Below are positions 4,381-59,561 of a DNA stretch of 64,000 nt, piece after piece. This DNA comes from Streptomyces sp. col6 (GTDB lineage: Bacteria; Actinomycetota; Actinomycetes; Streptomycetales; Streptomycetaceae), in the NCBI RefSeq assembly GCF_008042035.1, contig NZ_RDBL01000014.1:1-64000 (forward strand), given 5' to 3'. Numbering within the stretch: the stretch's first letter is position 1; each line of letters begins with the position of its first letter. Position numbers and translations under genes: made by a program. The notes under the pieces are model-generated. The model had not been told where the DNA came from. It saw only the letters and a list, made by a program, of their open reading frames with translations, and ran no database searches.

Positions 4381-4815
4381 ATGGCGACCGATATGCCGTC
4401 CGGTCAGGTCTCCGACCTCGACTGGCTGCTGAGCGGCCTGGTACAGCGCGTGCCGTACACCCGCAGCGCGGTCCTGCTCTCCGCCGACGGGCTGGTGAAG
4501 TCCCTCCATGGCATGGATGACGACAGCGCCGACCACATGGCGGCGCTGGCGGCCGGCCTCTACTCGCTGGGCCGCAGCGCCGGTGCGAGGTTCGGGGACA
4601 ACGGAGAGGTCCGCCAGGTGGTCGTCGAGCTCGACTCGACGCTGCTGTTCGTCGCCACCGCCGGCTCCGGGACATGTCTGGCGGTACTGGCCGGCCGCAA
4701 CGCCGACGCCGCCGTGCTCGGCTACGAGATGGCCATGCTGGTCAAGAGCGTGCGGCCCTATCTCATGACCCCGGTGAGACAGGCGGCCGGGACGCCGGGC
4801 GCCGTGGGGCTGTGA
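4381..4815 (+). CDS. cvnB: Conservon roadblock/LC7 protein CvnB
   Basis: The 144-residue protein is a single roadblock/LC7 domain: SDLDWLLSGLVQRVP at the N-terminus, SAVLLSADGLV, and VVVELDSTLLFVATAGSGTCLAVLA in the central sheet. In conservons CvnB binds the GTPase CvnD and CvnA, acting like the MglB partner of MglA (known from the family, not shown here). The start is ATG 4381, preceded by AAGGAG within the end of cvnA. A competing ATG at 4374 is in another frame. The stop is two bases before the cvnC start, so the genes are co-transcribed. Confidence 0.9.
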   Translation: MATDMPSGQVSDLDWLLSGLVQRVPYTRSAVLLSADGLVKSLHGMDDDSADHMAALAAGLYSLGRSAGARFGDNGEVRQVVVELDSTLLFVATAGSGTCLAVLAGRNADAAVLGYEMAMLVKSVRPYLMTPVRQAAGTPGAVGL

Positions 4816-4817
4816 GC

Positions 4818-5189
4818 ATGGCGCTCACCCAGGACGGGCCGCTGCTCGACGACGCGGCGGGCCGCCTCATCCGCCCCTACACGGTGAGCAACGGCCGTAC
4901 CCGTCCCACGGCCGTGCTCGACCTGCTCTCCCTGGTGATGGCCACCGGCTCCGTCCCGCAGGCCCATCTCGGCCCCGAGCACTCGGTGGCCCTGGGGCTG
5001 TGCGAGGGCCCCACATCGGTGGCCGAGATCGCCGCACACCTGAGGCTGCCCGCCGTCGTGACCAAGGTCCTTGTCTCCGACCTGGTCGACTGCGGCGCCG
5101 TCACCGCCCACGCGCCCGCCTTCCATGACACGCCCACCGACCGACATCTGCTGGAGGCAGTGCTCGATGGCTTACGACGACAGCTCTGA
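4818..5189 (+). CDS. cvnC: Conservon DUF742 protein CvnC
   Basis: This 123-residue DUF742 protein contains RLIRPYTVSNGRTRPT and a winged-helix-like core (EIAAHLRLPAVVTKVLVSDLVDCGAV). The fold resembles a small MarR-like domain, but its role in the conservon is unknown. It starts at ATG 4818, two bases after the cvnB stop. Its 3' end overlaps the cvnD start by 23 bases, which ties its translation to that of the GTPase. Confidence 0.88.
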   Translation: MALTQDGPLLDDAAGRLIRPYTVSNGRTRPTAVLDLLSLVMATGSVPQAHLGPEHSVALGLCEGPTSVAEIAAHLRLPAVVTKVLVSDLVDCGAVTAHAPAFHDTPTDRHLLEAVLDGLRRQL

Positions 5190-10903: not shown

Positions 10904-12298
10904 TCAGTCGGAGAGTGTGCTCGGGTCGACGGGCGGCTGGGGGAGGTTCAGCGCGGCGAGCTCGTCCCGGCCCGTGGCGTCGATGGGGAACGCCCAGGTG
11001 TTCACGAAGAAGTCGCTCAGGTCGTACCCGGCGATCCGGCTGGAGTAGGTGGCCAGGGCCCGGTAGCGCTTCGCGTCCTCGGTGTAGTCGGACTGCGGGT
11101 TCTCCTCGCGGACCAGCTTGTGCAGGCGCGGCCAGAAGTCCTCCCCGAACGCCAGCTCCAGCTGACGCAGCGGCACCAGCTTCTCGTACGCCCCGAAGGA
11201 CTTCTCGTAGGTGAGTCCGGGTGTGCCGAACTTGGCCCGCGAGGTCTGGAATACGGTCAGACCGGTCGCGGGATCGACCGTGAGCAGGTTCGACGGCTGC
11301 TTCAGGGTGCGCTGCGCGGCCAGCGAGTAGATGTTCACGGTGACCTCGGTGAGGCCGCCCGGCTTGTACGCCATCTGCTGATGGAGGTGGCCGAGCTCGT
11401 GGTAGAGCCCCCAGCCCCGGGTGCGCAGGCCCTCGACGGTGGTGGCCCGGTCCAGGTAGGCACGCGGGAAGCCGTTGTAGCCGTGCGTGGCGTAGGCGCC
11501 GACACCGGAGGGCACCTTGCTGACCTCGGTGAAGTGATACGGCCCCGCCTTGCGCCGGTGCACCGGCTTCGAGCCGTCGAGACCGCTGATCCGGGCGTGC
11601 GAGTCCACGATGGTCTCGACCAGCCGGAGCAGCGCCCCGTGGTCCTCGTCGCGGTACAGCAGGGCGCCCTCGCGCGTCAGCGTCATGATCGTGTGAGGGG
11701 CGTGCAGCTCCACCCAGGGCGACACGGTCAGCGTGTCCAGCTGGTGCTGGTAGTCCGCGTCGCTGGTGCGGCCCAGAGTGAAGACCGGCATCGGGACCGC
11801 GCCGGACCGGAACAGCACGCCGGCCCGCTCGCCGCGCCCGGTGAGCGTCAGGTAGACCGGGCCGCCGTGCGGGTCGGTCACCGTGTTGGCGCCGGCGGTC
11901 AGCGGATAGCTGCGGGGTTCGGTGACCTCGCCGTAGTAGTCCCAGGCCCCGATCCACAGCGTGGGCACCAGGCCGTCGTGCGGCTGGACGGTCAGCGAGA
12001 GCGCGGTCCCGGCGGGTACGTACAGGCCGGTCGGCTGGAACTCCGAACCGCGCAACGCCTGGGCGAGCCGCAGCCGTTCCGCCTCGGCGGCGGGGCATCC
12101 GGTGACGGTCACGGACACGGGGCGTCCGACGGGCCGGCCGGTCGCTGGCCCGGCGTGTGCGGTGGTCGCGGTGACGCCGAGGGCCACCGCCGCTCCCGCG
12201 CCCGCCGCCGCGGCGAGGACGGCGCGGCGGCCCACGGAGGAGGCGGCTTCGTCGGTGGGGGAGGCGGCCGGGGCGACGGAGTGGCTGGGCTTACGCAT
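10904..12298 (-). CDS. Secreted M60 family (enhancin/mucinase-type) metallopeptidase
   Basis: The 464-residue protein has a long N-region with a twin-arginine signal (SVGRRAVLAAAAGAG, cleavage near TAHA at residue 49). An N-terminal beta-sandwich (VSVTVTG ... AGTALSLTVQPHDG) is followed by the M60 catalytic domain. The zinc site reads HELGH at 300-304 with Glu318 as third ligand (GGLTEVTVNIYS), the HExxH-to-Glu spacing of the M60/enhancin group. Characterised M60 enzymes cut O-glycosylated proteins such as mucins and bind glycans; in soil bacteria the substrate is unknown. It is first in the operon with the PL8 lyase and the DUF2264 gene, and a LacI-type operator lies 70 bases upstream. Confidence 0.85.
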   Translation of the reverse strand: MRKPSHSVAPAASPTDEAASSVGRRAVLAAAAGAGAAVALGVTATTAHAGPATGRPVGRPVSVTVTGCPAAEAERLRLAQALRGSEFQPTGLYVPAGTALSLTVQPHDGLVPTLWIGAWDYYGEVTEPRSYPLTAGANTVTDPHGGPVYLTLTGRGERAGVLFRSGAVPMPVFTLGRTSDADYQHQLDTLTVSPWVELHAPHTIMTLTREGALLYRDEDHGALLRLVETIVDSHARISGLDGSKPVHRRKAGPYHFTEVSKVPSGVGAYATHGYNGFPRAYLDRATTVEGLRTRGWGLYHELGHLHQQMAYKPGGLTEVTVNIYSLAAQRTLKQPSNLLTVDPATGLTVFQTSRAKFGTPGLTYEKSFGAYEKLVPLRQLELAFGEDFWPRLHKLVREENPQSDYTEDAKRYRALATYSSRIAGYDLSDFFVNTWAFPIDATGRDELAALNLPQPPVDPSTLSD

Positions 12299-22434: not shown

Positions 22435-22508
<74 letters not shown>

Positions 22509-22527
22509 CTGGTGACAGTCGCAGACA

Positions 22528-48709: not shown

Positions 48710-50239
48710 TCAGATGATGCCCTCCTCGATCTCCGCCTGCTCGCGCGCGTTCCCGTACGCCGACGGCGTGCCGTACGAGCGTCGCGCGACGAACCACCAG
48801 ACGGTGGCCAGGACCAGCACCGCGACCAGGGCGATCGACGCGTAGTTCATCGAGTCGATGGTCACCGGGGACGACTGCGGCAGCAGGAACAGCACGGTCA
48901 CGATCGCCACCCACACCACGGCGATCCAGCCGACCGGCTTCGACCAGCGGCCCAGGTGCCACGGCCCGCGCTGGAACCGGCTTCCCGCGCGCAGCTTCAG
49001 GAAGATCGGTATCGCGTACGCGGGCGTGATGCCGATGACGTTGATCGCGGTCACCGCGCCGTACGCGGTCGCCGAATACAGCGACGGCAGGGCGAGCACC
49101 CCGGCGACGATCACCGACAGCCACACGGCGGGCACCGGTGTCTGGGTCCGGGCGCTGACCTTGCGCCAGAGCGAGGAGCCGGGAAGCGCGTTGTCCCGGC
49201 TGAAGGCGAACACCATCCGGCTGGCGGCGGCCACCTCGGCGTTGCCGCAGAACAGCTGCGCCGCGATCACGATGAGCAGCATCGCCGTGGCGCCCGAGGT
49301 GCCGAGCGCGTCGATCAGGATCTGGGCGGGCGGCACACCGGTGGCGCTCTTCTGCGTACCCACGTAGTCCTGGATGGCGAAGGTGAGTCCCGCGAGCAGC
49401 ACGAAGCCGGCCACCCACGACACCCAGATCGCCCGGACGATGCCGCGCGCCGCCGACACCGACGCGTTCGAGGTCTCCTCCGACAGGTGCGCGGAGGCGT
49501 CGTAGCCGCAGAACGTGTACTGGGCGAGGAGCAGCCCGATCGCCGCCACGTACAACGGGTTGTGCCAGCCGGTGTCGTTGACGAACTCGGTGAAGACGAA
49601 CGAGGGCGACTGGTGGTGCGAGGGCACGATCGCCAGGACGGAGACGATCACCGCGACACCGGCCAGGTGCCACCACACGCTGATGGAGTTGAGGATGCTG
49701 ACGAGCCGCACACCGAACAGGTTGAGCACGGCGTGCAGCAGCAGGATGCAGGCGAAGATGATCATCGTCTTGCCGGGGGTGGGGGTGAAGCCCCACTGGA
49801 GGTTCATCAGCGCGCCCGTGAACAGCGCGGCGCCGTAGTCGATGCCCGCGATGGCGCCGAGCAGCCCGAGCAGATTCAGCCAGCCGGTGTACCAGCCCCA
49901 CTTCCGGCCGCCGAGCCGGTCCGCCATGTAGTACAGCGCCCCGGACGTCGGGTAAGCGCTCGTCACCTCCGCCAGGGCCATGCCGACGCAGAGCACGAAC
50001 AGGCCGACCCCGGCCCAGCCCCACAGCATCACGGCCGGCCCGCCCGTCGACATGCCGAACCCGTACAGGGTCATGCACCCGGACAGGATCGAGATGACGG
50101 AGAAGCTGATGGCGAAGTTGCCGAACCCGCCCATGCGGCGGGCCAGGACCGGTTGGTAGCCGAGTTCGCGGAGCCGTTGCTCCTCGTCCTTCGGCGCGGG
50201 GGTCTCGGCACCCTTCCGGGGCGAGGCGGACACGGACAT
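48710..50239 (-). CDS. APC-superfamily amino acid permease
   Basis: The 509-residue protein has about 12 transmembrane helices after a charged start (EEQRLRELGYQPVLARRMGGFGNFAISFSVISILSG), the opening of the amino-acid/choline transporter group that includes GABA permeases. Other marks are GYDASAHLSEETSNAS and AASRMVFAFSRDNALPG. The substrate may be GABA, choline or another amino compound. ATG 50239 is chosen because AGGAGG lies seven bases upstream; the frame is open further but overlaps another gene. No catabolic partner is adjacent. Confidence 0.87.
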   Translation of the reverse strand: MSVSASPRKGAETPAPKDEEQRLRELGYQPVLARRMGGFGNFAISFSVISILSGCMTLYGFGMSTGGPAVMLWGWAGVGLFVLCVGMALAEVTSAYPTSGALYYMADRLGGRKWGWYTGWLNLLGLLGAIAGIDYGAALFTGALMNLQWGFTPTPGKTMIIFACILLLHAVLNLFGVRLVSILNSISVWWHLAGVAVIVSVLAIVPSHHQSPSFVFTEFVNDTGWHNPLYVAAIGLLLAQYTFCGYDASAHLSEETSNASVSAARGIVRAIWVSWVAGFVLLAGLTFAIQDYVGTQKSATGVPPAQILIDALGTSGATAMLLIVIAAQLFCGNAEVAAASRMVFAFSRDNALPGSSLWRKVSARTQTPVPAVWLSVIVAGVLALPSLYSATAYGAVTAINVIGITPAYAIPIFLKLRAGSRFQRGPWHLGRWSKPVGWIAVVWVAIVTVLFLLPQSSPVTIDSMNYASIALVAVLVLATVWWFVARRSYGTPSAYGNAREQAEIEEGII

Positions 50240-50297: not shown

Positions 50298-51284
50298 TCA
50301 GCCCGGGTCGGCCGCCAGCGCGCGGGCGCGGGCGCGCACGAACACTTCCTCGGCGCCGCCGGGGTCGTCCGGCGTACGGGAGCGGCTGGCCCAGGGCAGC
50401 GAGGTGAAGTACGGGCCCAGCTCCCTGAACACCGCGGCGGCCTCCACGAATCGGAGCGCCCCCCACAGCGCGTGCGCCAGGTGGTTGAGGTCGGGCAAGG
50501 CGCGGGTGGCGGCGGGGGCGCGCCGGTACCAGATCTCCAGTGCGCGCAGGGCCTCGCGCTCCGCGTCCTCGGTGACCCAGTGCAGGTCGAGGGCCTTGTC
50601 GTGGTCGTGCTCACGGCGGTAGCGCTCGACCCGTACGTACAGCGGGAGCACATGGAGGGCGGAGCCCTCGGGGGCCGTGGAGGACGCCCACTGGACGAAG
50701 TTGACCGCCTCGGAGAGCACGCTGCCGGCCTTGCGGGCGTACACGAACTGCAGCATCCGGTGGTAGGCCTCGCGGTTGTGCGGGTCGCGCCGGTCGGCCT
50801 CGGCCAGCAGCCCCCAGGGGGCGGGGAAGAGCATCGGTCCGGGCGGCGGCAGCCGGTGCTCGGCGAGGTGCTGGTCCTGGTCGAGCTGGGACAGGGCCAG
50901 CAGGCACACCCAGGGCACCGGGTCGGCCGGCGCGGCGTGGGCCGCTGACCGGCAGGCCTCCCAGGCCTCCTGCCAGAGTTCCCGGCCGCTGGGGTGCCCC
51001 GCGCGGTTGGCCCGTACCGCCCGCTCCACAGCGACCCGGGCGTGCATGACGAGGGCGGCGGCGCTCCCCGGTTCCTCGGTCAGCCAGGCCCGTACCGCGT
51101 CCGATCCCGCGGCGACCGCGCCGAGCACCTGGGTGCGCTGGGTCCACAGCGCCCAGTCCGGGGTGGCGGCCAGCAGGTCGCGCATGGCGAGCCAGCGGCC
51201 GGTGCGTAAGTCCTGTAACGCCGCTCGCAGTTCATTGTCGTGGCCGGCCGGATGGTAGACCGGCCGGAATTCACCGTTGGCCAT
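50298..51284 (-). CDS. Hypothetical helical (TPR-like) protein with two TTA codons
   Basis: I do not recognise this 328-residue soluble protein. It is helical with TPR-like alternation (AALVMHARVAVERAVRANR, WLAMRDLLAATPDWALW, FVEAAAVFRELGPYF) and rich in Trp and Ala. Codons 23 and 26 (51216-51218 and 51207-51209) are TTA, so translation should need the bldA tRNA-Leu, which in Streptomyces becomes active at development. It is divergent from the kinase operon, whose first gene also has a TTA codon, across a lower-GC gap. A role tied to differentiation is inference only. Confidence 0.75.
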   Translation of the reverse strand: MANGEFRPVYHPAGHDNELRAALQDLRTGRWLAMRDLLAATPDWALWTQRTQVLGAVAAGSDAVRAWLTEEPGSAAALVMHARVAVERAVRANRAGHPSGRELWQEAWEACRSAAHAAPADPVPWVCLLALSQLDQDQHLAEHRLPPPGPMLFPAPWGLLAEADRRDPHNREAYHRMLQFVYARKAGSVLSEAVNFVQWASSTAPEGSALHVLPLYVRVERYRREHDHDKALDLHWVTEDAEREALRALEIWYRRAPAATRALPDLNHLAHALWGALRFVEAAAVFRELGPYFTSLPWASRSRTPDDPGGAEEVFVRARARALAADPG

Positions 51285-51614
51285 GGACGCGCTCGGGACT
51301 GGCTGCTGAATTCATCGATCCTCAGGAGTATTGCTGCGGAGAAACTGTTGAAGTGCGAACTGCTTATCTGCGTCCGGTTGCTGCTCGGCGGTGAGTGTAG
51401 AGCCCTTTGCGCGGAACTCTCGAACGAATCATTGATTCTCCCCAAGTCGCTTGTCATTGACTCGTGTTGATGCTGCACAGAAGGCTTCGAAAGGTTCCGG
51501 ACACATGGCCTGGCAACGCTTGACGTATCCGCTGGGCTGCACCACTCTGGGTGGCCGCGACCGAAGATCACGATTCCGTTCAGGCCCCAGGGCCCGCGTA
51601 CCGCTGGAGAACCG
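51285..51614. other. Lower-GC divergent promoter region
   Basis: These 330 bases between the two TTA-containing transcription units are visibly poorer in GC (near 55% by eye) than the rest of the window. They should hold promoters for both directions. For the kinase operon TTGACG (51520-51525) and CACTCT (51543-51548) are 17 bases apart. No convincing coding sequence is present. Confidence 0.5.
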
Positions 51615-53048
51615 ATGACAGGCCCGGTGCTGGCGATCGACCAGGGCACATCGGGAACCAAAGCACTGGTGATCTGCCCCGAGCGAGGCGTGATCGGTTC
51701 CGGTTCCGCCCCCGTGCGGCCCCGGTACGGTCCCGCCGGAGCCGTGGAGACGGACCCGGCCGAATTACTCGCATCGGTCGTCGAAGCCGGGCAAAGGGCG
51801 CTGGCCGAATCGGGCGCCACCGTCGATGCCGTCGGGCTCGCCAACCAGGGCGAGACCGTACTCGCCTGGGACCCGGACACCGGGCGCCCGCTCACACCGG
51901 CGATCGTCTGGCAGGACCGCCGCGCCGTCGGCCTGTGCGCGGAACTCGCGGACCGCGGCGACGAGTTGAAACAGCTCACCGGGCTTCCCGTCGACCCGTA
52001 CTTCGCCGCCCCGAAAATGGCGTGGATCCGCCGCGAACTGACCCGGGAAGGCGTCGTCACCACCAGCGACGCCTGGCTCGTCCACCAGCTCACCGGCGCC
52101 TTCGTCACGGACGCCGCGACCGCCGGACGCACCCAGCTCCTCGACTTGGACCGCGTCGCCTGGTCGCCGGCCGCACTGGACGTCTACGGCCTCGGCGACG
52201 AGCGGCTGCCGGACGTGGTCGACGCCGCCGGTGACTTCGGCACGACGGGCGCGTTCGGCGGCGGGCTCCCGCTCACCGGCCTCCTCGTCGACCAGCAGGC
52301 GGCCCTGCTCGCCCAGAGCGCCCTCGACCCGTCCGTCGCCAAGTGCACCTACGGGACGGGTGCGTTCCTCCTCGCCGGTACGGGCGCGACACCCTGCCGG
52401 GGCGCCGGCGGACTCGTCAGCTGCGTGGCCTGGCGGCTCGGCGGGCACACCAGCTACTGCCTGGACGGCCAGGTCTACACGGCGGCCTCCGCGGTGCGCT
52501 GGCTCACCGACCTCGGGGTGATCTCCGGGGCCGCCGACCTCGACCCGGTCGGCGCCACCGTCCCCGACGCCGGCGGCGTCACCTTCGTCCCCGCGCTCGC
52601 CGGCCTCGCCGCCCCCTGGTGGCGCGGCGACCTGCGCGGCTCGGTCACCGGACTCGGCCTGGACACCTCGGCCGGCCACCTGGTGCGCGCCCTGTGCGAG
52701 GGGATCGCCGCCCAGGTCGTCGAGCTGGCCGACGCGGTCGCCGCCGACCGGGGCGCGCCGCTGTCCGTCCTGCGCGTCGACGGCGGTCTGACCCGCTCCG
52801 CCCTCCTCATGCAGACCCAGGCCGACCTGCTGCAACGCCCCGTCGAGGTGTCCGCACTGCCCGATGTCACCGCGCTCGGCGTCGGTGCGGTGGCCCGCAT
52901 GGGCGCCGACCCCGCACTCCCGCTCGACCGGGCCGTCCCCGACTGGAAACCGGCCGCCGTCTACGAACCCCGTATCGGTCCTGCCGAGGCGGCCGACCGC
53001 CTCGGCGTGTTCCGCGCGGCGGTGCGCACCCTGCTGGAGCGGTCGTGA
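51615..53048 (+). CDS. FGGY-family carbohydrate kinase, glycerol-kinase-like, with a TTA codon
   Basis: The 477-residue kinase has the FGGY phosphate loop LAIDQGTSGTKAL, NQGETVLAWDPDTGRPL (GlpK-like substrate loop), WQDRRA, and the C-terminal signature LRVDGGLTRSALLMQTQADLLQRPVE. The pattern is near glycerol kinase, but the DQGTSGTKA start is also seen in xylulokinases, so the substrate may be another polyol. Codon 51 (51765-51767) is TTA, predicting dependence on the bldA tRNA. Two FAD enzymes of the GlpA and GlpB types follow 7 bases downstream and then with overlap, which supports phosphorylation followed by flavin oxidation of a polyol phosphate. Confidence 0.82.
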   Translation: MTGPVLAIDQGTSGTKALVICPERGVIGSGSAPVRPRYGPAGAVETDPAELLASVVEAGQRALAESGATVDAVGLANQGETVLAWDPDTGRPLTPAIVWQDRRAVGLCAELADRGDELKQLTGLPVDPYFAAPKMAWIRRELTREGVVTTSDAWLVHQLTGAFVTDAATAGRTQLLDLDRVAWSPAALDVYGLGDERLPDVVDAAGDFGTTGAFGGGLPLTGLLVDQQAALLAQSALDPSVAKCTYGTGAFLLAGTGATPCRGAGGLVSCVAWRLGGHTSYCLDGQVYTAASAVRWLTDLGVISGAADLDPVGATVPDAGGVTFVPALAGLAAPWWRGDLRGSVTGLGLDTSAGHLVRALCEGIAAQVVELADAVAADRGAPLSVLRVDGGLTRSALLMQTQADLLQRPVEVSALPDVTALGVGAVARMGADPALPLDRAVPDWKPAAVYEPRIGPAEAADRLGVFRAAVRTLLERS

Positions 53049-53055
53049 GCCCCGC

Positions 53056-54480
53056 GTGGTAGCCGCGACGACACCCACCGTCACCCGGGCCGGACACCCG
53101 CTGCCCGAAGGTCCGCCGTACGACGTCACCGTCATCGGCGCCGGGGTCGTCGGCACCGCCCTCGCCCGCGAACTGGCCCGCCACCCCCTGCGTACCGCCC
53201 TCGTCGAGGCCACCGACGACATCGCCAACGGCACCTCCAAGGCCAACACCGCGATCCTGCACACCGGCTTCGACGCCGTCCCCGGCACCCTGGAGGCCCG
53301 CCTCGTCCGCGAGGGGCAGCGGCTGCTCTCCGGATACGCCGCCCGCACGGGCATCCCCGTCGAACGCGTCGGCGCCCTCCTCGTCGCCTGGGACCGCGAA
53401 CAACTCGACGCCCTGCCCGCCCTGCTGGCCAAGGCCGAACGCAACGGCTACCACGCGGCCCGGCTGCTCGACGCCGAGGAGACCGCGGCACGCGAACCCC
53501 ACCTCGGTCCCGGTGCGCTCGGCGCCCTGGAGATCCCCGACGAAGCCGTCATCTGCCCCTGGACCACCCCGCTCGCCTACGCCACCGAGGCGGTCCGGGC
53601 CGGGGTCCACCTCCACCTGGACTGCCCCGTCCGGGACCTCACGTACGCCGACGGCCTGCACACCCTCACCACCGGCCGGGGCACCCTGCGCAGCCGGCTG
53701 CTGATCAACGCCGCCGGGCTGCACGCCGACGCGATCGACCGCCTGCTGGGCCTCGACACCTTCACCGTGCGCCCGCGCCGGGGTCAGCTCATCGTCTTCG
53801 ACAAGCTCGCCCGCGACCTGGTCCACCACATCCTGCTGCCCGTGCCCACCGCCGCCGGCAAGGGCGTCCTGGTGGCACCGACCGTCTTCGGCAACGTCCT
53901 CCTCGGCCCCACCGCCGAGGACCTCGACGACAAGGACGCCACCGAGTCCACCGCCGAAGGGCTCGCCCTGCTGCGCGAGAACGGGCGCCGCATCATGCCC
54001 CGGCTGCTCGACGAGGAGGTCACCGCCGTCTACGCCGGTCTGCGGGCGGCCACCGGCCAGGAGGACTACCGGATCACGGCCCACCCGGACCGGCGCCTCA
54101 TCACCGTCGGCGGCATCCGCTCCACCGGGCTCACCGCCTCCCTGGCCATCGCCGCGTACGTGGTCTCCCTCCTGCCCGACGCCGGACTGGACCCCGGGGA
54201 GCCCGCCGAACCGGCCCCGCTCACCATGCCGAACCTCGGCGAGTCGGCCGGCCGCCCGTATCTCGACGCCGAGTCGATCGCCCGCGACCCCGCCTACGGC
54301 ACCGTGGTCTGCCACTGCGAACGCGTCACGGACGGCGAGATCCGCGACGCCTTCGCCTCGGTGCTCCCGCCCCGCTCGGCCGAAGGGCTCGCGCGCAGGA
54401 CCCGCGCGGGCAACGGGCGCTGCCAGGGCTTCCACTGCGGGGCCGCGCTCCGGGCCCGCATCGAGGAGGCCTGCCCATGA
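53056..54480 (+). CDS. FAD-dependent dehydrogenase with 2Fe-2S (BFD) domain, GlpA-like
   Basis: The 474-residue protein has a DAO-type FAD fold (VTVIGAGVVGTALARELA near residue 26; GTSKANTAILHTGFDA; LLINAAGLHADAID) and a C-terminal BFD-like domain whose cysteines are Cys419, Cys421, Cys456 and Cys461 (CHC ... CQGFHC). This is the layout of GlpA, the large subunit of the anaerobic-type glycerol-3-phosphate dehydrogenase. The GTG start at 53056 is eight bases after the kinase stop. Its stop overlaps the next ATG. A GlpC-like iron-sulphur membrane subunit is not present nearby. Confidence 0.82.
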   Translation: MVAATTPTVTRAGHPLPEGPPYDVTVIGAGVVGTALARELARHPLRTALVEATDDIANGTSKANTAILHTGFDAVPGTLEARLVREGQRLLSGYAARTGIPVERVGALLVAWDREQLDALPALLAKAERNGYHAARLLDAEETAAREPHLGPGALGALEIPDEAVICPWTTPLAYATEAVRAGVHLHLDCPVRDLTYADGLHTLTTGRGTLRSRLLINAAGLHADAIDRLLGLDTFTVRPRRGQLIVFDKLARDLVHHILLPVPTAAGKGVLVAPTVFGNVLLGPTAEDLDDKDATESTAEGLALLRENGRRIMPRLLDEEVTAVYAGLRAATGQEDYRITAHPDRRLITVGGIRSTGLTASLAIAAYVVSLLPDAGLDPGEPAEPAPLTMPNLGESAGRPYLDAESIARDPAYGTVVCHCERVTDGEIRDAFASVLPPRSAEGLARRTRAGNGRCQGFHCGAALRARIEEACP

Positions 54481-55688
54481 CCCGCCGCGAACGCCGCGTG
54501 GACGTCCTCGTCGTCGGCGCCGGACCGGCCGGACTCGCCGCGGCCGCGGGCCTCGCCGCCGCGGGTGTGCCGGACGTGGAGGTCCTGGAGCGCGACCAGG
54601 AGGCGGGCGGCATCCCCCGGCACTGCGCCCACGGCGGATTCGGAACGCGCCGGACCGGCGACCTCGACGGCCCCGCATACGCACGGCACTGCGCGGCCGA
54701 GGCCACGGAGGCCGGCGCCACCCTCCGTACCGGCGTCACCGTCACCGGCTGGGCGGGGCCCCGCACCCTCGACATCACCGGCCCCGGCGGCCTCGAACGC
54801 CTCACCGCCCGCGCCGTCGTCCTCGCCACCGGCGCCCGTGAACGCCCCCGCGCCGCGCGGCTCGTCCCCGGCACCCGGCCGGCCGGCGTCTACACCACCG
54901 GAGAACTCCAGCAGGCCGTCCACCTCCACCACCAGCACATCGGCACCCGCGCGGTGGTCGTCGGCGACGAGCCGGTCTCCCTCGCGGCGGCCGACACCCT
55001 GCGCACCGCCGGAGTCCACCTCATCGCCCGCGTCACGGAGCACCCGCCCCGCCCCTTCGCGACCCTGCGGCCGGCCGGGGGCGCGCCCCTGCTCACCCGG
55101 ACCACCGTCACCGCCCTGACCGGCCGCCCCCGCCTCACGGGCGTCCGGGTGCGCCACGAGGACGGCCGTACCACCACACTGGCCTGCGACACCGTGGTGT
55201 TCACGGCCGACTGGATCCCGGACCACGAACTCGCCCGGCGCGGCGGCCTGCCCCTGGACCCCGGCACCGGGGGACCCGCCCACGACCCCGCGTACCGCAC
55301 CGGGCGGCCGGGGGTCTTCGCCGTCGGGAACCTCCTGCACGGCGGGGAGAGCGCGGCCACCGCCGCCCGCGAGGGCCGAGCCGTCACGGGACCCGTACTG
55401 AGCCACCTGGCCGCCGGTGCCTGGCCGGCGGGCGGACCGCCCCTCACCGTCGCGGCACCGCTGGAATGGATCGCGCCCAACCTCACGGGGCCGCACGGCA
55501 GCCGCTTCCTGCTGCGGACGGGCCGGCGGCTGACGGCACCCCGCCTCGTCGTCAGCCAGGACGGGGCGCTGCTGCACCGCCGGCGCCTGGCACGCTCGGT
55601 TCCGCCCGGCAGTTCCTTCACCCTCACTGCCCGCTGGCTGGAGGGGGCCGACCCGGAGGGCGGCGCGGTGCGCATCCGGGTCGTGTGA
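54477..55688 (+). CDS. FAD/NAD-dependent oxidoreductase, GlpB/HcnB-like
   Basis: The 403-residue protein has an N-terminal dinucleotide fold (DVLVVGAGPAGLAAAAGLA), GGIPRHCAHGGFG, the second-site motif VVLATGARERPR, and VFAVGNLLHGGESAATAAREGR near the end. It resembles the flavoprotein subunits that pair with BFD-domain dehydrogenases (GlpB, HcnB/OoxA types). ATG 54477 overlaps the preceding stop, so the two subunits are made together. Gene order kinase-GlpA-GlpB suggests a complete polyol-phosphate oxidation unit; the final electron acceptor is unknown. Confidence 0.78.
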   Translation: MTRRERRVDVLVVGAGPAGLAAAAGLAAAGVPDVEVLERDQEAGGIPRHCAHGGFGTRRTGDLDGPAYARHCAAEATEAGATLRTGVTVTGWAGPRTLDITGPGGLERLTARAVVLATGARERPRAARLVPGTRPAGVYTTGELQQAVHLHHQHIGTRAVVVGDEPVSLAAADTLRTAGVHLIARVTEHPPRPFATLRPAGGAPLLTRTTVTALTGRPRLTGVRVRHEDGRTTTLACDTVVFTADWIPDHELARRGGLPLDPGTGGPAHDPAYRTGRPGVFAVGNLLHGGESAATAAREGRAVTGPVLSHLAAGAWPAGGPPLTVAAPLEWIAPNLTGPHGSRFLLRTGRRLTAPRLVVSQDGALLHRRRLARSVPPGSSFTLTARWLEGADPEGGAVRIRVV

Positions 55689-55700
55689 CTCCCGTACCGC

Positions 55701-56096
55701 TCAGGGAATGAGCAGCCAGTCCGAGCCGATCGCGGCGACGAGCCCGATGGCCAGCAGCCAGCTGCCCAGCCGGGTGCGGCCGTTCCGGCTCAGCTCGATC
55801 ACGATCCCGCAGAGGATCAGCGCCAGCCCGTACACGCCGACCACCAGGACGGACGCGCGGCTCGCGAGCCGCAGCCCGAGCACCACGGCCATCGCCACCA
55901 TCCCGGCCGAGGAGAGGGCGATGCGCAGTCGTCTCGCCTGGCGCGGGGTCAGCCGCCGCTCGCCGGTGTCCTCACCCTCCGCGAGGTCGTCCGCGAGGTC
56001 GTCCGTCATGTCCTCGGCCGTTGCCCCGGCCGTGTCCTCGCCCGGGTCTTCGGCTATCGGTGCGTCCGGGGCCCGGTCCTGGTCAGAAGTGCTCAT
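55701..56096 (-). CDS. DUF3017 small membrane protein
   Basis: The 131-residue protein has an acidic N-terminal half (repeats of EDxxDDLADDLAEGEDTG), a basic hinge (LTPRQARRLR) and two to three hydrophobic helices (ALSSAGMVAMAVVLGLRLASRASVLVVGVYGLALILCGIVIE, LGSWLLAIGLVAAIGSDWLLIP), matching DUF3017. The function is unknown; the family is usually near folate-metabolism genes in Streptomyces, which are not seen here. The start is ATG 56096; an in-frame start 18 codons earlier has no ribosome site. Confidence 0.8.
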   Translation of the reverse strand: MSTSDQDRAPDAPIAEDPGEDTAGATAEDMTDDLADDLAEGEDTGERRLTPRQARRLRIALSSAGMVAMAVVLGLRLASRASVLVVGVYGLALILCGIVIELSRNGRTRLGSWLLAIGLVAAIGSDWLLIP

Positions 56097-56183
56097 GACG
56101 CCGGATCGTAATGGCTCCGCACCGACCTGTTCGCCGTTGTCAACCAACACCGTCGAAACCAGGCCGAGTTCGATGTCCCGGAA

Positions 56184-56672
56184 TCAGCCCTCCCGGAGCC
56201 TCGGTGCCTCCGCGGCCGCGTCGACCGGCCCCGCGTCCGGACGCTCGACCCGCGCCGCCAGCTCCCGCGCCCAGCCGGCCAGCTCCCCGAGGCCCATCCC
56301 GTGCGTCTCACCCGCCCCGTACGCCTCCAAGGCCACCGCGCCCCGCCGCAGCAGCCGCGCACCGCCCGTCGCGTTGCCCCGGGCGGAGTGCGTCAGGCCC
56401 ACGGCCAGCTGGGCCAGCCCGCGCCACAACTCCCGTTCCCCGTCCGGGCCGGACTTCCAGGCGTCCTCGAAGACCTCGTGCGCGTGGAACGGCATTCCCG
56501 CGTCCAGCAGCCGCTGCGCCTCCCGGACGGTCTCCCCGGGGGTGCGCTCGACGCCCTCCGGCTGCCGCTCCACCCCGGGCGCCCCGTACGGCAAGGGGCG
56601 TCCCAGCCCGTCACGGGGGCGCGCGTTGTGCGCCCGTCCCTCGGAATCGCGGTCCCTGCGTGTCTCGTTCAC
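56184..56672 (-). CDS. DUF309 protein
   Basis: The 162-residue cytoplasmic protein has the DUF309 helical core: GMPFHAHEVFEDAWKSGPDGERELWRGLAQLAVGLTHSARGNATGGARLLRRGAVAL. The HxxHExxE-like cluster (FHAHEVFED) may bind metal, but no activity is known. The start GTG 56672 is preceded by GGGGG; upstream in-frame sequence up to 56837 would overlap the divergent LAL gene and is unlikely to be coding. Confidence 0.78.
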   Translation of the reverse strand: MNETRRDRDSEGRAHNARPRDGLGRPLPYGAPGVERQPEGVERTPGETVREAQRLLDAGMPFHAHEVFEDAWKSGPDGERELWRGLAQLAVGLTHSARGNATGGARLLRRGAVALEAYGAGETHGMGLGELAGWARELAARVERPDAGPVDAAAEAPRLREG

Positions 56673-56740
56673 ACCCCCGATTGTGCCCCGCACCTGCGGC
56701 GAACTGTCCGAACCCCTGTCCGTGGAACGCCGCGCGCGAC

Positions 56741-56746
56741 TAGGCT
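56741..56746 (+). promoter_or_regulatory. -10 box upstream of the short ORF and LAL-like gene
   Basis: TAGGCT ends nine bases before ATG 56755, the geometry of a leaderless message. No clear -35 box is visible. Confidence 0.45.
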
Positions 56747-56754
56747 CGACCACC

Positions 56755-56808
56755 ATGGTCACCACTTTGGGGGAGGGTAGGCATGAAGCCGTCCCGGCCG
56801 CTTTATGA
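56755..56808 (+). CDS. Possible leaderless upstream ORF ending TTA-TGA
   Basis: ATG 56755 opens a 17-codon frame (MVTTLGEGRHEAVPAAL) whose last sense codon is TTA (56803-56805) just before TGA. It overlaps the first 26 bases of the LAL-like gene (ATG 56783) in another frame. No ribosome site precedes it, but a -10 box does. It could make translation of the large gene depend on the bldA tRNA; it may also be chance. Confidence 0.3.
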   Translation: MVTTLGEGRHEAVPAAL

Positions 56809-59468: not shown

Positions 59469-59542
<74 letters not shown>

Positions 59543-59561
59543 CTGGAGACAGTCGCAGATC

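Follow-up and report, generated by a model that had tools for sequence, protein, structure and literature searches.

The operon that joins a gene for a hypothetical, TPR-like protein to a permease gene is a predicted bldA target, conserved at the level of the gene in many Streptomyces; we give this reading a probability of about 0.7. The TTA codon that marks the operon is not tied to one place: it changes at several leucines of gene 1 or turns up at the start of the permease gene. In the window (the whole 64-kb stretch of Streptomyces DNA that was analysed) the hypothetical gene, at 50298-51284 on the minus strand, encodes 328 amino acids and is the operon's gene 1. The gene of an APC-type transporter of the AA_permease_2 family (48713-50239, minus strand) lies 58 bases downstream as gene 2. 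Codons 23 (51216-51218) and 26 (51207-51209) of the hypothetical are TTA, as is codon 51 (51765-51767, plus strand) of a divergent kinase gene (51615-53048, plus strand). These codons were picked out by eye in a first-pass annotation, and a scan by program confirmed all of them in frame. The annotation took them for markers of bldA control. For the hypothetical this is supported: orthologues and paralogues have an early TTA much more often than the background does, as a bldA-type marker would predict. For the kinase it is not supported. The TTA-marked unit looks like the hypothetical-permease pair, not polyol use or a late acquisition, which were the two readings first offered.

TTA codons of the hypothetical gene

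The scan found four TTA codons, spread over three of the 51 genes called in the window. The third carrier is a doubtful ORF of 125 amino acids (4812-5186, plus strand), with TTA as its codon 121 and without an NCBIfam match; at a stricter gene-score cut-off, which leaves 44 genes, TTA is found in the hypothetical and the kinase alone. As a control, 298 genes called over 400 kb of this genome include 4 with TTA, at 4 per 10349 leucine codons. The gene caller trims starts, so that TTA near 5' ends is undercounted, and this control was redone with two further start rules. TTA genes then number 6/287 with starts chosen by ribosome-binding site and 15/287 with the longest ORF, the latter an overestimate; within codons 1-45 the figures are 2/287 and 7/287 genes, or 2 of 1225 and (again an overestimate) 7 of 1066 leucine codons. 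CTA is commoner than TTA in these controls. Two TTAs within four codons of the hypothetical exceed this background. When loci of relatives were counted with trimmed starts, TTA at codon 45 or earlier was found in 19/68 hypotheticals and 4/77 kinases, and TTA at any position in 1/199 other genes of the same loci. The UUA-reading tRNA-Leu(TAA) is encoded in the genome (locus L149).

Among 118 distinct kinase-linked loci, the hypothetical has TTA at codon 45 or earlier in 53 and anywhere in 62. (Starts were re-chosen by ribosome site for this count, and 53/118 is not on the same footing as the 49/99 of the tree rows referred to below.) In evenly drawn genomes of the genus, 21/51 kinase-linked orthologues have such an early TTA (16/29 and 5/21, with locus L186 lacking it). 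For 110 hypothetical sequences, duplicates included, TTA makes up 74 of 550 leucine codons in codons 1-40 and 10 of 3382 after. Eleven loci with an identical hypothetical were dropped before the tree was made, and fragment G102 was left out. In the first 46 columns of the 99 distinct orthologues TTA accounts for 63 of 492 leucine codons and CTA for just 4; TTA stands at the column of codon 23 in 27/99 and at that of codon 26 in 19/99. Parsimony assigns 1, 7, 5, 6, 1 and 3 changes to TTA columns 6, 19, 23, 26, 32 and 37, a total of 23, with 5 more at columns 69, 90 and 103 (window numbering); since changes on a tree cannot separate gain from loss, an ancestral TTA with many losses is possible. 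Whole clades of the tree, such as that with S. violaceusniger, are without TTA. For the whole family (196 distinct members, 12 of 208 rows having been dropped) 35 changes fall on 941 leucine cells of the 5' part and 20 on the 6006 that follow it. Conservation in orthologues had been proposed as a check on what the TTAs mean: it is found for the hypothetical at the level of the gene, though not universally and not at a fixed position, and it is not found for the kinase codon. In many lineages selection appears to preserve a 5'-proximal TTA in the operon, with its position unfixed.

One contrary explanation dispenses with regulation: an AT-rich or weakly constrained 5' end, added to the known bias of TTA to gene starts, would accumulate TTA. 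That bias is in print for streptomycetes (PMC4255298), and GC3 of the hypothetical orthologues is lower in codons 1-40 (0.853) than after (0.915). Yet AT-richness alone is no explanation, since CTA stays low in the orthologues while the controls have more CTA than TTA. Nor does weak constraint fit: over 1500 random pairs, synonymous and non-synonymous differences stand at 11458:6842 in codons 10-33 and at 97151:95307 in codons 46-300, so that the protein is under the stronger constraint in the earlier stretch. Neighbouring genes of the same loci are, moreover, nearly without early TTA (codon 45 or earlier: kinase 0/118, permease 1/117, the DAO-type oxidoreductase 0/76, the other FAD oxidoreductase 0/61), and paralogues use non-homologous TTA positions. 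We consider an unregulated accumulation unlikely. The excess of synonymous differences in codons 10-33 also bears on the suggestion that translation truly starts at Met34, which would place the TTAs in a leader, outside the coding sequence. What speaks for that start is an ATG at 51284 lacking a Shine-Dalgarno (SD) match of at least 4, and a Met34 that is invariant among 43 orthologues. However, H11, P12, A13, G14, D16, L19, R27, G29, R30 and W31 are equally invariant in the same 43, and much of the N-terminal stretch is recognizable in paralogues; a start at Met34 is very hard to credit.

At an E cut-off of 0.001 the protein itself is matched by neither NCBIfam nor Pfam, and its two matches to PDB sequences (E 0.43-0.47) were taken as chance. 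The AlphaFold (AF2) model is all-helical, with a pLDDT of 87.5. The best Foldseek match of this model is a TPR superhelix (E 1.6e-4, TM 0.31-0.37) and the best match by VIA has a Z of 12.7 with an rmsd of 5.6, in a range that the tool gives as common for helical repeats. To judge by the model, the protein resembles TPR superhelices and is a candidate superhelix of antiparallel helix pairs; we refer to it as TPR-like.

A leader ORF and the divergent gap

The hypothetical is preceded by a short ORF that is out of frame with it. This leader of 14 codons and a stop (51271-51315, minus strand) begins with an ATG at 51315, overlaps the start of the hypothetical and terminates inside its codon 5, with a TGA ending at 51271. 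The SD-like GAGGA that serves it (51319-51323, minus strand) is a strong ribosome site, and the GAGGA-NNN-ATGA of the leader is identical in 13/13 aligned sequences, the window included. With ATG or GTG starts and an end at -10 to +20, a leader is found in 71 of the 118 kinase-linked loci, compared with 6/123 for control genes whose upstream sequence is intergenic and 10/118 for kinase starts. When TTG starts are allowed and ends restricted to +1, +4, +11 and +14 (chosen after the result for the wider range had been seen) it is found in 85/118, compared with 6/123 and 16/118. No leader was found in the other 33 loci, TTG starts included. The leaders of the 85 loci comprise 27 distinct offset-and-end combinations. 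The full GAGGANNNATGA element is present in 57 loci; in nine of these it lies 150-153 bases upstream, with an ORF ending at -54. Just 21/118 hypotheticals have an SD match of at least 4 of their own. Leader and early TTA overlap only in part, with both present in 42 loci, the leader only in 29, TTA only in 11 and neither in 36. Elsewhere the leader is found in 20/36 other permease cassettes, in 1/9 paralogues without a permease, in 0/33 of a group linked to an AAA ATPase (see below) and, in other genera, in 3/16 cassettes with a close permease. An SD-led short ORF at the start of the hypothetical is thus kept across relatives. The peptide that it encodes, and its length, vary between clades; the junction with the hypothetical recurs.

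Short leader ORFs in front of structural genes have been proposed to raise translation of the latter by re-initiation (PMC4833913). The present leader resembles these in lying just 5' of a structural gene, and it may likewise be translationally coupled to the hypothetical. It differs in that the leaders treated in PMC4833913 are by definition non-overlapping, whereas leaders of the window's type stop on or inside the start region (+1, +4, +11, +14), and in that the gene that follows has UUA.

The gap between the hypothetical and the kinase (330 bases, 51285-51614) had been singled out as GC-poor. At 58.5% GC it is indeed the lowest in the window, but modestly so, other called intergenic stretches of at least 100 bases ranging from 60.0 to 75.6%. 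Relatives share some of its sequence (mean column identity 57%), as a divergent promoter region should. At 51520-51548 on the plus strand TTGACG-17-CACTCT can be read, promoter-like and suitably placed for the kinase operon; its TTGACG is identical in 13/13 aligned sequences, the window included. A consensus promoter scan of the window did not report this site; its one match is on the minus strand and was set aside. The best reading of the gap is a pair of divergent promoters together with the leader, and this explains its lower GC. Just 3' of the kinase promoter-like site, GATCACGATTCCG (51566-51578) is nearly identical in 13 aligned sequences and is a possible operator.

The kinase, its neighbours and polyol use

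The kinase is an FGGY-family protein and glycerol-kinase-like: FGGY_N (147.6 bits) and FGGY_C (109.6 bits) are both matched above the gathering score, while the GlpK model NCBIfam TIGR01311 gives 397 bits, short of its curated cut-off of 590. On the same strand follow an FAD oxidoreductase (DAO) with a BFD [2Fe-2S] domain, glycerol-3-phosphate-oxidase-like (53056-54480), and a pyridine nucleotide-disulphide-type FAD oxidoreductase (54477-55688). The order of FGGY kinase, DAO/BFD oxidoreductase and second FAD oxidoreductase is that of glpK/glpA glycerol operons; unlike those, the window genes score under the curated cut-offs for GlpK and GlpA. Judging by these matches, the three enzymes probably serve glycerol-like polyols.

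Our reading of the TTA-marked unit has to be set against the proposal that polyol use is under a divergent developmental switch, kinase and hypothetical being co-regulated through bldA. That proposal draws on the window, in which both genes carry TTA, and on the 118 loci, in which TTA is found in 10/62 kinases where the hypothetical has TTA and in 2/56 where it does not (Fisher p 0.03, uncorrected for relatedness). Against this, 97 tree rows include a kinase, and just 5 of these kinases, from a single close clade, have TTA at codon 51; TTA anywhere in the kinase is found in 12/118 loci and at codon 45 or earlier in none. On the same tree the whole kinase has 9 parsimony changes at five columns, all within codons 51-138. 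Distant hypothetical-permease cassettes, moreover, often retain their TTA with no kinase match within 2-4 kb on each side. In the kinase, TTA was probably added recently or is incidental, and we rate co-regulation of polyol use as distinctly improbable. Because TTA at codon 51 of the kinase is confined to one clade and many cassettes have no kinase nearby, it is the hypothetical-permease pair that we take to be marked. (A complementarity of the two genes, with TTA in one replacing TTA in the other, was hinted at by single loci and was rejected, co-occurrence being the tendency if there is any.)

Late acquisition, the other original suggestion, is not borne out. GC3 is 0.93 and 0.91, the sequence of the gap is conserved, and the neighbourhood is stable in the best 80 of 98 loci by similarity to the window (from named genomes), a choice that favours close relatives: a permease lies downstream of the hypothetical on the same strand in 79, the kinase is present in 78 and the two oxidoreductases in 72 and 68. 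Horizontal acquisition was rejected on GC3 and synteny. In the two loci without a kinase match the situations differ. The sequence of L080 stops 246 bases upstream of the hypothetical; in L079 6 kb are present upstream and the kinase is truly not adjacent. In a further locus, L042, the kinase is matched in part and neither oxidoreductase is found, the hypothetical and permease being retained.

Related cassettes and the proposed control

The family to which the hypothetical belongs, taken with all its subfamilies and with or without a permease, is found in 58/61 Streptomycetaceae genomes and 17/17 genera; a class-level search gave matches in 34/296 genomes, 7 of them outside the genus. One homologous cassette adjoins a divergent gene for an EccA/CbxX-type AAA ATPase of 621-626 amino acids, and in this AAA-linked subfamily TTA is codon 5 of the hypothetical in 23/25 loci. 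In 53 other Streptomyces loci the hypothetical has TTA at codon 45 or earlier in 10 (codons 2, 3, 5, 18, 20 or 21) and the permease in 5 of the 43 that have one (codons 2, 4 or 20). For the 196 distinct family members, TTA occurs in either gene in 110/185 with an adjacent permease and in 2/11 without; the latter two are L244, truncated where its contig ends, and L097, which is orthologous but had no permease that could be found. The contrast is similar in 35 hand-picked loci of other genera from the family-search matches (11/16 with a permease of at least 58% identity, 1/19 without), although the groups with and without permease differ in ancestry, which makes it suggestive only. In those 16 cassettes TTA lies at codon 45 or earlier in just 3; the other TTAs stand at codons 50, 92, 116 or 209.

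How might such a marked operon work? In young mycelium, ribosomes arriving through the leader ORF would start again at the hypothetical and, on reaching UUA 23/26, stall or abort, making little TPR-like protein; polarity from the hypothetical would then leave less permease. As mature tRNA-Leu(UAA) accumulated, TPR-like protein and permease would both be made, and the permease would serve nutrient uptake in the developing colony. Of this picture, the TTA codons with their enrichment and shifting positions, the synteny, the tRNA gene and the arrangement of the leader ORF are observed; what is established for bldA and for translational coupling leads us to infer the bldA dependence, the stalling, the coupling, the polarity and what the permease does. 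A bolder version, which we put forward tentatively and with the odds against it, has selection acting on the operon, not on the codon: TTAs would be repeatedly lost and regained at different sites in either gene while, in one branch, a leader of free sequence would feed ribosomes to the start, and a UUA stall within about 45 codons would block the coupled start. If that is so, UUA control at the level of the operon amounts to a position-independent, self-renewing codon switch.

Several observations count against such a brake. An early TTA is missing in 65/118 kinase-linked orthologues and from whole clades of the tree, in other genera TTA falls mostly in the middle of the gene, and the AAA-linked group has no leader. 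In codons 1-45 of the hypothetical family 99 of 100 TTAs precede a pyrimidine, which is C in 73, and decoding independent of bldA has been associated with TTA-C. Expression of TTA genes in bldA-deficient strains has also been described (PMC4932002). Of the leucine codons TTG, CTG and CTC in the same stretch of the family, 520/846 precede a pyrimidine; the bias at TTA comes in part from fixed neighbouring residues.

Known bldA-dependent genes (adpA and the sets of Table 2 in PMC4255298) are alike in having a rare TTA that is kept in orthologues, is biased to gene starts and, within a cluster, sometimes falls now in one gene and now in another, as in amfC/amfR in that table. The TTA of adpA lies between its two domains in all the streptomycetes analysed there; that of the present operon, in contrast, changes place, both inside the first 45 codons and from one of the two genes to the other. 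Among entries identified by more than a locus tag or the word 'Unknown', the TPR-permease pair was not recognized in PMC4255298 (Table 2) or PMC10327506 (section 17), and no paper on the pair appeared among the matches listed in literature searches. Most Streptomyces TTA codons show low conservation when judged by site (PMC10327506). To judge by the cassette, conservation of bldA control may lie at the level of the gene or operon while the codon moves, in which case surveys based on site would overlook targets of this sort. An uncharacterized TPR-like family also gains a testable place in the developmental programme.

Three smaller matters may be added. The divergent AAA gene (L213-L226 and other AAA-linked loci) has a TTA of its own in 19/25, mostly near codon 333. 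To judge by the wording of a published table, this gene may be SCO1434, the 'Secreted AAA ATPase' that is entered there with TTA in 8/13 genomes (PMC4255298, Table 2). An Rfam scan of the window returned two tRNAs and nothing else, both of them tRNA-Pro(GGG) genes (22435-22509 and 59469-59543) with equal scores. Beyond the second oxidoreductase, opposite-strand candidate ORFs at 55704-56009 (minus) and 55708-56808 (plus) overlap within 55704-56808, and each is matched in 28/80 loci.
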